Part shown: one piece after another, positions 4,705 to 9,891 of the stretch
How positions within the stretch are numbered: position 1 is the first letter of the stretch
Layout of the letters: every line of letters begins with the position of its first letter
Origin: Bacillota bacterium
GTDB taxonomy: Bacteria; Bacillota; Sulfobacillia; JAIMAT01
Direction of reading: 5' to 3'
NCBI GenBank assembly: GCA_023511835.1
Contig: JAIMAT010000015.1
Coordinates: 1 to 33,618, forward strand
DNA length: 33,618 nt
Notes under the pieces: model-generated
What the model was told of the DNA's origin: nothing
Database searches by the model: none
Seen by the model: only the letters and a program-made list of their open reading frames with translations
Position numbers and translations under genes: made by a program

Positions 4705-5001
4705 TCAGACGTCGTCCCCGGGCTCGATGGAGGGACGGTAGCCGCCCGCCCCCTCGCCGTCCTCCCCGGGCCACGGCTGGCGCCAGACGTCGAAGGCGTA
4801 GGCCATGCGGCGGCGGAACTCCCGGGCGCGCCGCCGCAGCTCCGCCTTCTCGCCGCCGCGCCGCCCGGACCGGCTCACCTCGCGCAGGCCGGCCCCCAGA
4901 GCCGCACCTGCCGCCGCCCCCAGCGCCGTGGTCGTCACCAGTCCGGCCGCCAGGCCCAGTCCCACGGCCCGGCGGATCCAGCGTCGTCCCGCACCCAACA
5001 C
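4705..5001 (-). CDS. Small glycine/alanine-rich membrane protein (YtxH-like in form)
   Basis: A 98-aa protein with a basic start (GRRWIRRAV), one Gly/Ala-rich hydrophobic segment (about residues 13-36), a strongly basic helix (RRRAREFRRRM) and an acidic tail. The layout resembles YtxH-type small membrane proteins, but similarity is by composition only. The start is the GTG at 5001, with AGGAGGGG five bases upstream; an ATG at 5031 lacks such a site. It heads the minus-strand run leading to the UbiB kinase gene and may be co-translated with it. Function unknown. Confidence 0.7.
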   Translation of the reverse strand: MLGAGRRWIRRAVGLGLAAGLVTTTALGAAAGAALGAGLREVSRSGRRGGEKAELRRRAREFRRRMAYAFDVWRQPWPGEDGEGAGGYRPSIEPGDDV

Positions 5002-5093
5002 CTCGACCCCTCCTGTCCTAGAGCTTATCATGCGCCCCGGCCGGCGCCGCGCCGCCCGGCGGTCGCGCGCCCTCGTCCGGCGCGGCGCGGCGC

Positions 5094-5122
5094 TTGACAG
5101 GGGCGGGGGCGTCGCCGATAGT
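5094..5122 (+). promoter_or_regulatory. Sigma-A-type promoter of the T-box/trpP unit
   Basis: TTGACA at 5094-5099, a 17-base spacer, then GATAGT at 5117-5122. The -35 box is perfect and the -10 box matches 4 of 6. Transcription would start near 5129, just upstream of the T-box Stem I, as expected for a leader-controlled gene. Confidence 0.8.
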
Positions 5123-5144
5123 GGTGCCAAAGTCGCACCGCTGG

Positions 5145-5447
5145 CACGGGCGATGAGCGGGAGGAGTAACCGGGGCGTCTCCGCCCCAGAGAGCCGGGGC
5201 AGCTGGGAACCGGCGCGGAGATCCGGCGAATGGACCCGCGAGCCTTCCGGCCGAGCGGCCCGGGAACGGGCCGGTGAGGCCGGACGGGGACCCCGCCGCT
5301 AATGGGGAGGCGGCCCACACCGCCGCGACGTCCGGCCCCGGGGCCGGACCGCGCGGCAGGAGGGTCGCCGTCGAGCGCGCCGCCGCCGGCGGCGAAGCAG
5401 GGTGGCACCACGGAGAGAGCCCGTCCCTCGAGGGACGGGCTTTCTTG
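5145..5447 (+). promoter_or_regulatory. T-box riboswitch, tryptophan type
   Basis: A transcriptional T-box leader fills most of the 539-base gap before trpP. Stem I closes by GCGGG (5157-5161) with CCCGC (5235-5239) and holds the conserved elements AGGAGTAA and CAGAGAGCCGGGG...CTGGGAACCGG. The specifier context GAATGGACC gives codon UGG (Trp) at 5231-5233. The T-box sequence AGGGTGGCACCACG (5399-5412) can pair with CGTCCCT (5422-5428) to form the antiterminator; the same CGTCCCT is the left arm of the terminator. The bulge UGGC (5403-5406) would pair with a tRNA ending GCCA, which fits the G73 of bacterial tRNA-Trp. Uncharged tRNA-Trp should therefore turn on the transporter gene downstream. 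Confidence 0.94.
5419..5446 (+). terminator. Intrinsic terminator of the T-box
   Basis: A perfect 10-bp hairpin (arms 5419-5428 and 5431-5440, two-base loop) followed by TTTCTT. Its left arm overlaps the antiterminator strand, giving mutually exclusive folds. Confidence 0.92.
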
Positions 5448-5540
5448 CATCCCGGAGGCCCGCGGGGAGAGGCTCCCCCGTCCCGCGCCGGCGGTGCGAC
5501 GGAAGCGGTCCGGCGGGACCGCGACGAGGGGGTCCTGGAC

Positions 5541-6110
5541 ATGCAGAAGGCGGTGGCAGGCGAGGGCGGGCAGGGCGAGCGGCTGCGCGTCGCCGATCTG
5601 GCGACGGCCGCCCTGCTGCTCGCCGTGGGCTACGTGCTCAACACGGTGATGCCGCCCTTCTACGCGGGCATGAAGCCCGACCTGGTGCTGGCCATGCTCT
5701 TCGTCATCCTTCTCCTCTTCCGGAACCTGACGGTGGACGTGGCCGCGGGTCTGGCGGCGGGCGTGATCACGGCGCTGACCACCAGCATGCCCGGCGGCCA
5801 GATCCCCAACCTGGTGGACAAGATCGTCACCACGCTGGTGGTGGTGGGCGTCATCCGTCTGGTGGGCCGGCTGCAGCCGAACCTGCTCTCCGTGGTGGTG
5901 GCGGTGGTGGGCACGCTGGTCAGCGGGACGGTCTTCCTGCGGGTGGCCATGGCCATGGGCGCGGTGCCGTCGGCCGCCTTCCGCACGCTGTTCCTGACGG
6001 TGGTCCTTCCCACCACGCTGGCCAACGCGGTGGTGGTGGCGCTCCTCTACGCCGCGGCACGCCTGGCCCGGCGCGCCATGGGCGGCGCGACGACGCCGGC
6101 CCGCGGCTGA
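5541..6110 (+). CDS. trpP: Tryptophan transporter TrpP
   Basis: A 189-aa membrane protein with about five or six hydrophobic segments. It resembles the TrpP (YhaG) tryptophan transporter of Bacillus: the order MPPFYAGMKPDLVLAM, then ITALTTSMPGGQIPNLVDK, then a C-terminal segment around VVLPTTLANAVV follows that family closely. The role is uptake of tryptophan across the cytoplasmic membrane. The ATG at 5541 was chosen over upstream in-frame codons because those lie inside the T-box. The T-box with a Trp specifier independently supports the substrate. In Bacillus subtilis trpP is controlled by TRAP instead; here the T-box takes that place. Confidence 0.93.
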   Translation: MQKAVAGEGGQGERLRVADLATAALLLAVGYVLNTVMPPFYAGMKPDLVLAMLFVILLLFRNLTVDVAAGLAAGVITALTTSMPGGQIPNLVDKIVTTLVVVGVIRLVGRLQPNLLSVVVAVVGTLVSGTVFLRVAMAMGAVPSAAFRTLFLTVVLPTTLANAVVVALLYAAARLARRAMGGATTPARG

Positions 6111-6114
6111 GGGG

Positions 6115-7077
6115 GTGCCGGCAGGCGGCGTGGGCGGGGAGGAGGCGCGGCGCGAGGCGGGCGGCGGAGCCTGGGTACGCCTCTACGGCGGCGGCATCGG
6201 CGACCTGGTCCTCACCCTGCCCTTCCTCAGGCGGCTGGGCGAGGAGGGCCCGCTGGTGGTGGCCTGCCCGGCGCCGGTGCAGGCGGAGCTGCTGGCCCGC
6301 GCGCCGTGGGTGACACGGGCGGCGGCCGTGGAGGAGTTTCTCGTGGCCCGGCGCCGGGGGGCGGAGGGCGCGCGCTTCTACGACCTGGCGGAACACCCCA
6401 TGCAGCGCGACTGGTGGTGGGGCTCGGAGGCCTTCACGCGGGCCTTCGGCCCCATCCACATGCTCCGGGTGCTGGAGCGCATGTTCGGCTTCCCGCCGGC
6501 CGCGGAGAGGCCCCGCCTGGAGAGCCGGCCGCCGGAGGCGCTGCTGGCGGCGGCCGGGCTGGAGCCGGGCGACCTGGAGCGCCTGGTGCTGCTGGCGCCC
6601 GGGGGGCGGCGCCGCAACAAGCTCTGGCCGCTGGAGCGCTGGCGCCGCCTGGCGGGCGCCCTGCGGGAGCGGGGCTGGCGCCCCGCCGTGGTCGGTCGCG
6701 CCGGCGAGCCGTACTCCCACCAGGTGGCCGAGCTGGCCGCCGGGGGGCTGCCCCACCTGGGGGACGGGGAGATCGGCGCCACGCTCGACCTGCTCTCGGC
6801 GGCACGGGCGGTGGTCGCCGTCGACAACGGGCTCGCCCACCTGGCGGCGCTCCAGGGAACCCCCACGGTGATCCTCTTCGGGCCCGCGCAGGCGTGGCTC
6901 TGGGCACCGCCCTACCCCAACGCGGTGCCGGTGCAGGGAGCCTGCGGGCTCAACTGCATGGCGCAGCCCTTCGAGTGGGAGTGCCCCTGGAAGGTCTGCA
7001 TGGAGGTGATCCGGCCTGAGACGGTGCTGGCCACCCTGCTGGGCCTGCTGGAGATGGGCCGGACGGGGGCGTGGTAG
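6115..7077 (+). CDS. Glycosyltransferase family 9 (heptosyltransferase-like)
   Basis: A 320-aa GT-B glycosyltransferase of family 9, the group of ADP-heptose transferases. The N-terminal half has the acceptor-side glycine loop GGGIGDLVLTLPFLRRL; the C-terminal half has the nucleotide-sugar signature VAVDNGLAHLAALQGTPTVILFGP and a Cys-containing end (CGLNCMAQ, CPWKVCM) common in the family. It starts with GTG four bases after trpP, so it should be transcribed from the same T-box-controlled promoter. A Gram-positive host makes an LPS substrate unlikely; a cell-surface or S-layer glycan is a guess. Donor and acceptor cannot be read from the sequence. Confidence 0.88.
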   Translation: MPAGGVGGEEARREAGGGAWVRLYGGGIGDLVLTLPFLRRLGEEGPLVVACPAPVQAELLARAPWVTRAAAVEEFLVARRRGAEGARFYDLAEHPMQRDWWWGSEAFTRAFGPIHMLRVLERMFGFPPAAERPRLESRPPEALLAAAGLEPGDLERLVLLAPGGRRRNKLWPLERWRRLAGALRERGWRPAVVGRAGEPYSHQVAELAAGGLPHLGDGEIGATLDLLSAARAVVAVDNGLAHLAALQGTPTVILFGPAQAWLWAPPYPNAVPVQGACGLNCMAQPFEWECPWKVCMEVIRPETVLATLLGLLEMGRTGAW

Positions 7078-7101
7078 GCTGGCGGCGAGAGGGGTGACGT
7101 G

Positions 7102-9174
7102 ATGACGCTGCGTGCTCTGGAGGCGGAGGACCTCTTCCGGCTCCGCTTCCTGGGGGAGCCGGAGCTGTCGCCCGACGGCTCGCGGCTCCTCTGCGTGGAG
7201 ACGACCATCGACCCCAAGCGGAACGGCTACCGCTCGCGCCTGGTCGCCTTCGACCCCGAGCGGGGCGGCCCGCCGCGCCCCTGGACGAACCCCCCGGAGG
7301 GCCGCTCGGATCGCCATCCGCGCTACTCGCCCGGCGGGGGGCAGGTGGGCTTCCTCTCCGACCGCTCCGGTTCGAACCAGCTCTGGCTGATGCCGGCGGA
7401 CGGCGGCGAGGCGCGGCAGGTGACGCAGGTGAAGGGGATCGCCGACTTCGCCTGGGTGGACGAGCGGCGGTTGCTCCTGACCGTCCGCGAGGGCGAGGAG
7501 GGGCCCGAACCGCCCGAGCCGGAGGAGGAGGGACCGCCACCCGACGAGGCGGCGGCCCAGAGGAAGCGGTACACGCGCGACGTCCGCGTCGTCGACCGCA
7601 TCTTCTACCGCATCGACAGCGTGGGCTACATCCACCGGGAGCGCTCCCACCTCTTTCTGCTCGACCTCTCCGAGCTGCCCGCCGGCGGCGAGCCGGCCGG
7701 CCCGGAGCGGCTGCGCAGGCTGACGGGGCCCGGCGGGTGGGACGACGAGGAGGCGCGACCCTCGCCGGACGGCCGCCGGGTGGCCTTCGTCTCGCGGCGC
7801 GACGAGGCGCACCCCGACCTGACGGACCTCTACGTGCTGTCGCTGGAGGGCGGGGAGCCGCGGCGCCTGACGGCGGGCGGCGGGGGCGTGGGCGAGCCGG
7901 CCTGGTCGCCCGACGGCGAGCGGATCGCCTTTCTCTTTGCGCGCAAGAACCCCGACGGCTCCTCGGGCAACGCCGAGGCCTGGTGGGTGCCGGCCGACGG
8001 CTCGGGCGCGGCGCAGCCGCTGAGCGCCGGCTACGACCGCTCGCTGGTCGACGCCTCGCTGGGCGACACCCGCGGCCACGACGGCGGCGCGCCGCTGGTC
8101 TGGTCGCCGGATGGGAGCCGGCTCTACGCGCTCGCCTCCGACCGCGGGGCGACGCGCCTCGTGGCCGTCGAGGTGGGCGGCGGACGCGTCGAGACGCTGA
8201 CCGGGGAGGAGCCGAGCCTCTTCGGGATCGCCTGGCCCCGCGACCGCTCCTTCTTCGTGGCGTTGGGCACCGAGGCGCTGGCGCCCTGCGACCTCTGGCG
8301 CGGGCGGCCGGGGGAGGGCGGGCTCCGGCGGCTGAGCCGGATCAACGGGGAGCTCCTGGACGGGATCGACCTGGGCGTGCCGGAGCGCTTCACCTTCCGC
8401 GCGCGGCCCGGGAGTCCGGAGATCGACGGCTGGCTGCTGCGGCCGGCCGGCAACGGGCCGGAAGCCGGGGTGCCGGCGCCGGTGGTGCTGGAGGTGCACG
8501 GCGGGCCGGCCATGATGTACACGGGCGCCTTCTTTTTCGAGTTCCAGCTGCTCCGCGCCCGCGGCTTCGCGGTCCTCTGGTCCAACCCGCGCGGCTCCGA
8601 GGGGTACGGGGAGGCCTTCCGCAACGCCATCCACGGCCGCTGGGGGACCGACGACTTCGAGGACGTCATGGCGCTGCTGGACGCCGGCCTCGCCCGGGGC
8701 GGCCTCGACCCGGAGCGCGCCGGCATCGCCGGGGGCAGCTACGGCGGCTTCATGACCAACTGGGCGGTCGGCCACAGCGACCGCTTCCGCGCCGCCGTCA
8801 CCATGCGCAGCGTCGTCAACTGGGAGAGCGACTTCGGCACGGGCGACTTCGGCTTCCTGGACGACGAGATGTTCGGCGGGGCGCTGCCCTGGCGCGACCC
8901 GGAGCCGTACCGGCGCATGTCGCCGCTCACCTACGTGGAGGCGATCCGCACGCCGCTCCTCATCCTTCACTCGGAGAACGACTGGCGCTGCCCCATCGAG
9001 CAGGCGGAACAGCTCTACGCGGCGCTGAAGAAGCTGGGGCGGACGGTGCTCTTCGTCCGCTACCCGGGCGAGAGCCACGAGCTCTCGCGCTCCGGCAAGC
9101 CCTGGCACCGCCTCGACCGGCTGGAGCGGATCGCCGGCTGGTTCGAGCAGTACCTGCGCCCCGCGGGCCGCTGA
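7102..9174 (+). CDS. S9 family peptidase (acylaminoacyl-peptidase-like)
   Basis: A 690-aa serine peptidase of the prolyl oligopeptidase family. Residues 1-410 form a WD40-like beta-propeller with repeats of the type SPDGxR (for example PAWSPDGERIAFL); the alpha/beta hydrolase domain follows. The triad is visible: Ser546 in GGSYGGFMTNW, Asp627 in LHSENDWRCP and His659 in PGESHELSRSG. An acidic proline-rich insert lies near residues 132-155. There is no signal peptide, so it is probably cytoplasmic and trims oligopeptides. ATG 7102 is preferred to GTG 7099 because AGAGGGG then sits seven bases upstream. It follows the glycosyltransferase by 24 bases, in the same operon. Confidence 0.93.
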   Translation: MTLRALEAEDLFRLRFLGEPELSPDGSRLLCVETTIDPKRNGYRSRLVAFDPERGGPPRPWTNPPEGRSDRHPRYSPGGGQVGFLSDRSGSNQLWLMPADGGEARQVTQVKGIADFAWVDERRLLLTVREGEEGPEPPEPEEEGPPPDEAAAQRKRYTRDVRVVDRIFYRIDSVGYIHRERSHLFLLDLSELPAGGEPAGPERLRRLTGPGGWDDEEARPSPDGRRVAFVSRRDEAHPDLTDLYVLSLEGGEPRRLTAGGGGVGEPAWSPDGERIAFLFARKNPDGSSGNAEAWWVPADGSGAAQPLSAGYDRSLVDASLGDTRGHDGGAPLVWSPDGSRLYALASDRGATRLVAVEVGGGRVETLTGEEPSLFGIAWPRDRSFFVALGTEALAPCDLWRGRPGEGGLRRLSRINGELLDGIDLGVPERFTFRARPGSPEIDGWLLRPAGNGPEAGVPAPVVLEVHGGPAMMYTGAFFFEFQLLRARGFAVLWSNPRGSEGYGEAFRNAIHGRWGTDDFEDVMALLDAGLARGGLDPERAGIAGGSYGGFMTNWAVGHSDRFRAAVTMRSVVNWESDFGTGDFGFLDDEMFGGALPWRDPEPYRRMSPLTYVEAIRTPLLILHSENDWRCPIEQAEQLYAALKKLGRTVLFVRYPGESHELSRSGKPWHRLDRLERIAGWFEQYLRPAGR

Positions 9175-9231: not shown

Positions 9232-9891
9232 TCACTCCTGGGGCGAGCGGGTGAGGCCGATGCGGCGGCCGTTGCGGAAGTTGAAGACGTCGACGACGCC
9301 GAAGCCCGCCTCCGCGAAGGCCTTGGCCAGCGCGCCCGGGCTCTCCACGTCGACGCGGAGCATGATCAGGTAGGCACCGGCGCTCTCCGCGCGGTGGGTG
9401 ACCACGTGGGTGATGTTGCCGCCGTGCTCGCCCACGATGCGGGCGATCCGCTCCAGCTGGCCCGGCCGCTCCACCGCCGCCAGGGTGAAGCGCGTGTTCT
9501 CCTCGCCGGCGCCGAAGAGGCGGGCGAACTCCGCGATCAGGGCGTCGCGGGTGACGATGGCGACCAGTTCGCCGGTCTCGTCGACGACGGGGAGGAAGTT
9601 GAGCGGCTCGCCCAGCATGCGGACGGCCACCTCTTCGATGACGTCGTCGGGGTGGACCGGTTCCGGCGCCGCATCCATCAGGTCGGCGACGGTGACCCGC
9701 GGCACGCGCCCGGAGAGCGCCCAGTCGTAGACGGCCCGCGCCGTGATGACGCCGACCAGCTCCCGGGCCCGCGTCACCGGCAGGGAGGTCACGCCCGTGT
9801 CCTGCAGGACGACCAGCGCCTCGTCCGCCGTGGTCTCGGGCCGGACGGAGAGGATGTCCGTCCGCCAGAAGTTGCGGACGAACAAGGGCAT
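9232..9891 (-). CDS. acuB: AcuB-like CBS-CBS-ACT protein
   Basis: A 219-aa protein with two CBS domains (about residues 1-55 and 68-125) and a C-terminal ACT-like domain (about 138-210; FTLAAVERPGQLERIARIVGEHGGNI). This architecture and length match AcuB of Bacillus, which sits in the acuABC acetoin-utilisation operon and is thought to sense nucleotides. Here acuA and acuC are absent and the gene follows ispH by 43 bases, so the symbol marks the architecture rather than a proven acetoin role. The start is taken as ATG 9891; a GTG sits one codon earlier and AAGGGG overlaps it, so the exact start is uncertain. Confidence 0.85.
   Translation of the reverse strand: MPLFVRNFWRTDILSVRPETTADEALVVLQDTGVTSLPVTRARELVGVITARAVYDWALSGRVPRVTVADLMDAAPEPVHPDDVIEEVAVRMLGEPLNFLPVVDETGELVAIVTRDALIAEFARLFGAGEENTRFTLAAVERPGQLERIARIVGEHGGNITHVVTHRAESAGAYLIMLRVDVESPGALAKAFAEAGFGVVDVFNFRNGRRIGLTRSPQE

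Follow-up and report, generated by a model that had tools for sequence, protein, structure and literature searches.

A tryptophan T-box riboswitch ahead of the transporter gene trpP in a G+C-rich lineage of the Bacillota

The DNA under study (hereafter the window) is the whole of contig C15, JAIMAT010000015.1, a stretch of 33,618 nucleotides from a 2.36 Mb genome of the Sulfobacillia (Bacillota) that is assembled in 156 contigs and is 96.3% complete. It was analyzed alongside two further genomes of the same genus, G001 and G002, the present one being G000. It bears a gene for the tryptophan transporter TrpP, which is preceded by a promoter and a structured leader comprising the following elements:

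5094..5122, + strand: sigma-70-type promoter, TTGACA-17-GATAGT (10/12 matches)
5149..5244, + strand: stem I, with specifier loop, AGAGAG bulge and distal loop (cmscan, RF00230 at 5150-5243)
5188..5193, + strand: AGAGAG of stem I (RF00230 alignment; identical in the three genus genomes)
5231..5233, + strand: specifier UGG, a Trp codon, in the loop GAAUGGA (RF00230 alignment; identical in the three genus genomes)
5245..5370, + strand: long stem II region between stems I and III (RNA fold)
5291..5314, + strand: candidate stem IIA/B pseudoknot (pairs found by eye; block largely conserved in the genus)
5373..5396, + strand: purine string GAGCG, stem III (5378-5384/5388-5394) and AA (RNA fold)
5399..5428, + strand: antiterminator, with A1 AGGG/CCCU and A2 ACGG/CCGU (cmscan, RF00230 at 5371-5428; individual pairs listed)
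5403..5409, + strand: T-box bulge UGGCACC, in which UGGC (5403-5406) is complementary to the 5'-GCCA of tRNA-Trp (inspection; tRNA 3' end read)
5413..5446, + strand: intrinsic terminator hairpin with a UCGA loop (5428-5431) and a 3' side ending in UUUCUU (fold and pairing; not called by the terminator scan)
5526..5532, + strand: Shine-Dalgarno-like GAGGGGG (by inspection; GGAGGTC in the other two genus genomes)
5541..6110, + strand: trpP, tryptophan transporter, 189 aa (Pfam PF17099, E 8.4e-41)

Together these elements make up a transcriptional T-box riboswitch spanning 5149-5446, behind the promoter and ahead of trpP; the leader is real and is an ordinary member of a known riboswitch class. 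An earlier note, made from the sequence alone, had placed it at 5145-5447, which is good to a few bases (5149 is the first base of stem I, and the terminator runs to roughly 5446), and the three motifs which that note named, namely the specifier UGG, the UGGC bulge and a CGTCCCT (5422-5428) common to antiterminator and terminator, are each present in the sequence. For the promoter, a scan of 5000-6200 recovered 2 such sites, against a mean of 0.0 across 50 shuffles, and its second hexamer, the only one aligned, reads GATAGT, GATAGT and CATAGT across the three genus genomes. Close behind trpP lie two further genes, one for a family 9 glycosyltransferase (6115-7077) and one for an S9 peptidase (7099-9174), separated by gaps of 4 and 21 bases in the frames as listed, whose start codons are provisional. 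This gene order is the same in both other genus genomes. Hence, the three genes may be co-transcribed and the switch may govern all of them.

Several features of the leader's anatomy match the T-box class. The specifier codon UGG (5231-5233) matches the amino acid handled by the product of the downstream trpP gene. The stretch GAGCG-stem III-AA fits the purine-string motif RRRxG-stem III-AA, described as a T-box feature in the part of PMC7583486 drawn on here. Within the stem II region, CCCC (5291-5294) can be paired by eye with GGGG (5304-5307) and GCCGC (5295-5299) with GCGGC (5310-5314), giving the candidate pseudoknot. Finally, the stretch CCGUCCC is needed by the antiterminator and the terminator alike; because it overlaps both, the two predicted structures are mutually exclusive.

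Covariance models recover the same architecture, in two pieces. With E-values as the criterion, cmscan of 5000-5600 ranked RF00230 (T-box) as the top family, with one match at 5150-5243 (45 bits, E 1e-8, model positions 7-103 of 219) and another at 5371-5428 (27.7 bits, E 2.9e-4, model positions 157-216 of 219), both on the same strand and collinear along the model. The length of the stem II region and the base composition are the likely cause of this split. The earlier note had proposed the model as a check, and the outcome depends on the threshold: it is positive with E-values only, and at Rfam gathering scores there is no match anywhere in the window, the cut-off for RF00230 being 93 bits. 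That score is the curators' cut-off for automatic annotation and not a structural feature. None of the 12 RF00230 matches in this genome, pieces included, attains it (the best, before trpD, has 72.5 bits), nor does any match in the three genus genomes (0/3), as against 2/14 control genomes. Since all the genus matches fall below it, the miss at 93 bits reflects the lineage and the model, and not this leader alone; the default cut-off thus misses every RF00230 match found in this genome and its two genus relatives. Conversely, weak RF00230 matches mean little, because the genome search with E-values up to 10 also gives matches in 10 of the 14 control genomes, archaea included. The rest of the case for a T-box is independent of such weak matches.

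Thermodynamic folding contributes evidence that differs by element. The terminator hairpin (5417-5447) has a folding energy of -22 kcal/mol (z -4.66, 0/200 shuffles as good), the 127-base stem II region (5244-5370) one of -91.4 kcal/mol (z -4.46, 0/200 as good), and the leader as a whole is likewise more stable than its shuffled versions (z -4.29, 0/100 as good). On their own, stem I (z -0.77, 47/200 as good) and the antiterminator stretch (z +0.54, 138/200 as good) are no stabler than shuffles, and the minimum-energy fold of the whole leader fails to draw stem I as the covariance model does. The earlier note had also called stem I unusually GC-rich, a description that we abandon: its G+C content is 74.0%, level with the 73.8% of the window, and that of the T-box stretch as a whole (5149-5447) is 77.6%.

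These data bear on whether the element works on transcription or translation. Translational T-boxes exist, according to the part of PMC11477304 consulted, and such a device would hide or free the ribosome-binding site of trpP instead of terminating transcription; the automatic terminator scan, which called 0 sites, might be taken in its favor, and the U-tract UUUCUU, being short and broken, counts against an intrinsic terminator. Nevertheless, the hairpin at 5413-5446 is a strong one with a U-rich end, its counterpart in G001 carries a seven-U tail, and the Shine-Dalgarno-like sequence lies some 80 bases beyond it; we therefore regard translational control as very improbable. The scan may perhaps have missed the terminator on account of the pairing running into the U-tract.

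Comparison within the genus offers a further line of evidence. The same leader precedes trpP in both G001 and G002, whose TrpP proteins are 79% and 72% identical to that of the window. The promoter-to-gene alignment of the three genomes averages 75% column identity, ragged ends included, and the specifier, the AGAGAG, the bulge and the flanks of stem III are unchanged throughout. For the outer pair of A1, G000 has A-U and G002 has C-G, a two-sided change, and G001 has an A.G mismatch, a point against the T-box reading; in the terminator stem, G002 has other bases than G000 on either side and yet keeps its pairing. Decay of the T-box, such that its parts persist with switching lost and trpP is left with constant termination or read-through, could be argued from the RF00230 score below the gathering cut-off, the broken U-tract and the mismatched A1 pair in G001, and is the least probable reading of all, given the invariance of the key elements against that average identity and the pairing retained through change in the terminator of G002.

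As to the identity of the sensed tRNA, the tRNA-Trp of the genome has the anticodon CCA and a 3' end reading G-CCA (G73); hence, both the UGG specifier and the UGGC bulge, which is complementary to the GCCA end, fit it. The earlier note had regarded the two as independently predicting tRNA-Trp. Their agreement stands; their independence does not, since the bulge would fit any tRNA with G73, and this base occurs in 9 of the 36 tRNA sequences with an encoded CCA, representing six amino-acid classes (Trp, Asn, Asp, Gln, Ser and one Arg) in a set of 37 distinct tRNAs on 32 loci that is not quite complete, as 39 tRNA matches are listed. The bulge is therefore a weak second specificity signal. At its variable position, 46% of the Trp T-boxes in the collection of PMC7778990, as given in the portion used here, have U; among 31 trpP T-boxes from the survey described below, the base is C in 27 and U in 4. 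As a separate observation from the tRNA search, ARAGORN calls a tRNA-SeC gene with anticodon TCA at 1448-1542 on the minus strand of locus L010 (contig C1), and the genome may accordingly encode selenocysteine.

The covariance model, the anatomy, the conservation and the gene context converge on a Trp T-box ahead of trpP as the best reading, as the earlier note had proposed. We consider it nearly certain that this is a transcription-attenuating, tRNA-Trp-specific T-box riboswitch controlling trpP, with tRNA binding, charge sensing and termination being attributed to it from the known T-box mechanism. By that analogy, the nascent leader would bind tRNA-Trp via the UGG specifier. When no amino acid is attached, the GCCA end of the tRNA would pair with the UGGC bulge and hold the antiterminator (5399-5428), allowing RNA polymerase to continue into trpP and possibly the two close downstream genes. 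If the tRNA is charged, the amino acid is expected to block this pairing, whereupon the stronger terminator (5413-5446) would take up the CCGUCCC stretch and transcription would stop.

The genome codes for further elements of this kind. On contig C4, a UGG T-box precedes trpE and a trpG-like GATase gene, and on contig C22 another precedes a trpD-like gene with IGPS/PRAI and PALP genes after it, the gene names being based on Pfam and neighborhood in each case. The trpE T-box (L007) and its genus counterparts (L042, L043) have the bulge UGGCACA, not UGGCACC. In the trpD leader (L001 on contig C22, and likewise L035 and L036; approximately 1500-1850 on the T-box strand), a single UGG stem I precedes two modules that resemble an antiterminator/terminator; the distance between their bulges is 86-90 bases, too short for a second full stem I, and all three genus genomes are alike in this. 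A T-box class with duplicated terminator-antiterminator elements was reportedly described by Vitreschak in 2008. How partially tandem T-boxes work is described as unknown in the section of PMC7583486 consulted. Elsewhere in the genome, two T-box matches (68423-68647 and 69740-69958; L004 and L005; 33.1 and 32.2 bits) lie about 1.1 kb apart on the minus strand of contig C1, and a match of 64.8 bits (9355-9584, minus strand of contig C50; L019) is placed just before a threonine--tRNA ligase gene.

The transporter gene of Bacillus subtilis is instead controlled by TRAP. A search for the TRAP gene (PF02081) returned 0 matches in this genome, which is 96.3% complete, and was positive in the B. subtilis control; the longest chain of (G/T)AG repeats at the start of this trpP is 1. 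With neither a TRAP match nor repeats, we rejected TRAP control of this gene.

We then asked how these two modes of control are distributed. TrpP matches were found in 7 of the 154 genomes of the class and in 111 of the 398 genomes of a sample of the phylum. The tally consists of 77 genomes: 71 of the 111 phylum genomes, i.e., the present one and 70 others that were chosen by score and not by random draw (the best-scoring apart from three), and six other genomes of the class. This leaves out 40 of the 111 (3 with E 5e-36 to 2e-30 and 37 weaker or partial), as well as second trpP copies in G262, G299 and G503 and a fragment in G014. The T-box search covered 655 to 1529 bases of upstream DNA per locus, and the counts are of genomes, not of independent events. 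Within the class, all 7 genomes with TrpP have a UGG T-box upstream of it and no TRAP match. In the full tally, trpP is immediately preceded by a same-strand UGG T-box in 0/38 genomes with a TRAP match versus 31/39 without one, and GAA-UGG is present in all 31 of these direct T-boxes. By family labels, there are 14 families among the 31 T-box genomes and 21 among the 38 TRAP genomes, with none in common.

The repeats follow the same division. Among the 38 TRAP genomes, the (G/T)AG chain at the trpP start ranges from 3 to 10 with a median of 5, and among the 31 T-box genomes from 1 to 3 with a median of 1, the ranges touching at 3. A shuffle control, in which no more than 2 out of 200 simple letter shuffles may reach the chain length, is passed by 26/38 of the former and 0/31 of the latter. 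Eight of the 39 genomes without TRAP have no direct T-box, which sits badly with an either/or pattern. In six of them, a UGG T-box lies before the gene upstream of trpP; NCBIfam identifies this intervening gene as TrpB-like in the 2 genomes tested, the others having been read by eye, and in some cases there may be further genes in between. The seventh, G403, runs into a contig end. The eighth, G234, has six (G/T)AG repeats in an assembly of about 450 contigs, and hence its TRAP gene may have been missed. In three TRAP genomes, a T-box is found behind trpP on the same strand. A separate scan of named genomes, outside the tally of 77, yielded 4 trpP relatives, 1 of which (L026, a Bacillota MAG) has a T-box in the DNA covered.

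We lean toward a unifying interpretation, namely that across the phylum trpP is probably placed under one of two exclusive RNA devices, either a Trp T-box or TRAP-binding repeats at the start codon, with the swap between them following family-level gain or loss of TRAP. The lineage of the window would lie on the T-box side, where UGG T-boxes before trpE, trpD and trpP occur in three different layouts, through which the response to tRNA-Trp charging may be graded. The contrast between two species, with TRAP in one and a T-box in the other acting on one transporter gene, thereby becomes a near-complete either/or pattern in the genomes examined, which can be used to ask which control state came first, and the present leader adds a G+C-rich lineage to the set of T-box-controlled trpP genes. 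We did not find this pattern stated in the literature searched, although it may in part be covered by Panina 2003, Gutierrez-Preciado 2007 and Vitreschak 2008.

Control of trpP by a T-box is itself already in print for Clostridioides difficile, and the present leader is a new member of that set. The part of PMC7438776 used here names trpP among the C. difficile genes with T-box long leaders, and Table 2 of PMC11477304, likewise seen as an excerpt, has CD1988, a putative tryptophan transport protein, which we infer to be the same gene. That T-box resembles the one described here in preceding a tryptophan transporter gene, a likeness drawn from its description and not its sequence. In the excerpts of PMC3766115 and PMC12452182 consulted, trpP is not mentioned, and the 2008 table of PMC2494555, in the portion consulted, has only ABC and NSS transporters among those with Trp T-boxes. 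The T-box of Streptococcus suis trpX (PMC9382623, in part) also serves tryptophan uptake, but its target is an ABC transporter and not a member of the TrpP family.

Measured against the Trp-specific members of the stem II-containing transcriptional T-boxes of RF00230, the leader is alike in its stem I, specifier, purine-flanked stem III, antiterminator/terminator pair and UGGN bulge, and differs in its long and G+C-rich stem II region. A2 starts with A-U, as against the conserved G-U wobble described in the pertinent section of PMC7583486. We do not regard this as noteworthy: with the register chosen to maximize pairing, the first pair of A2 in the 31 trpP T-boxes is A-U in 7, G-U in 15 and G-C in 9. 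In B. subtilis, TRAP acts on the same gene to the same end, the matching of uptake to tryptophan supply, by different means: there a tryptophan-activated protein binds the translation-initiation region, at sites in the trpP transcript reported in the part of PMC11255114 examined, whereas the present genome has no TRAP match and a chain of 1. The contrast with B. subtilis, which the earlier note had drawn, is thus right by that source and holds across the genomes surveyed.
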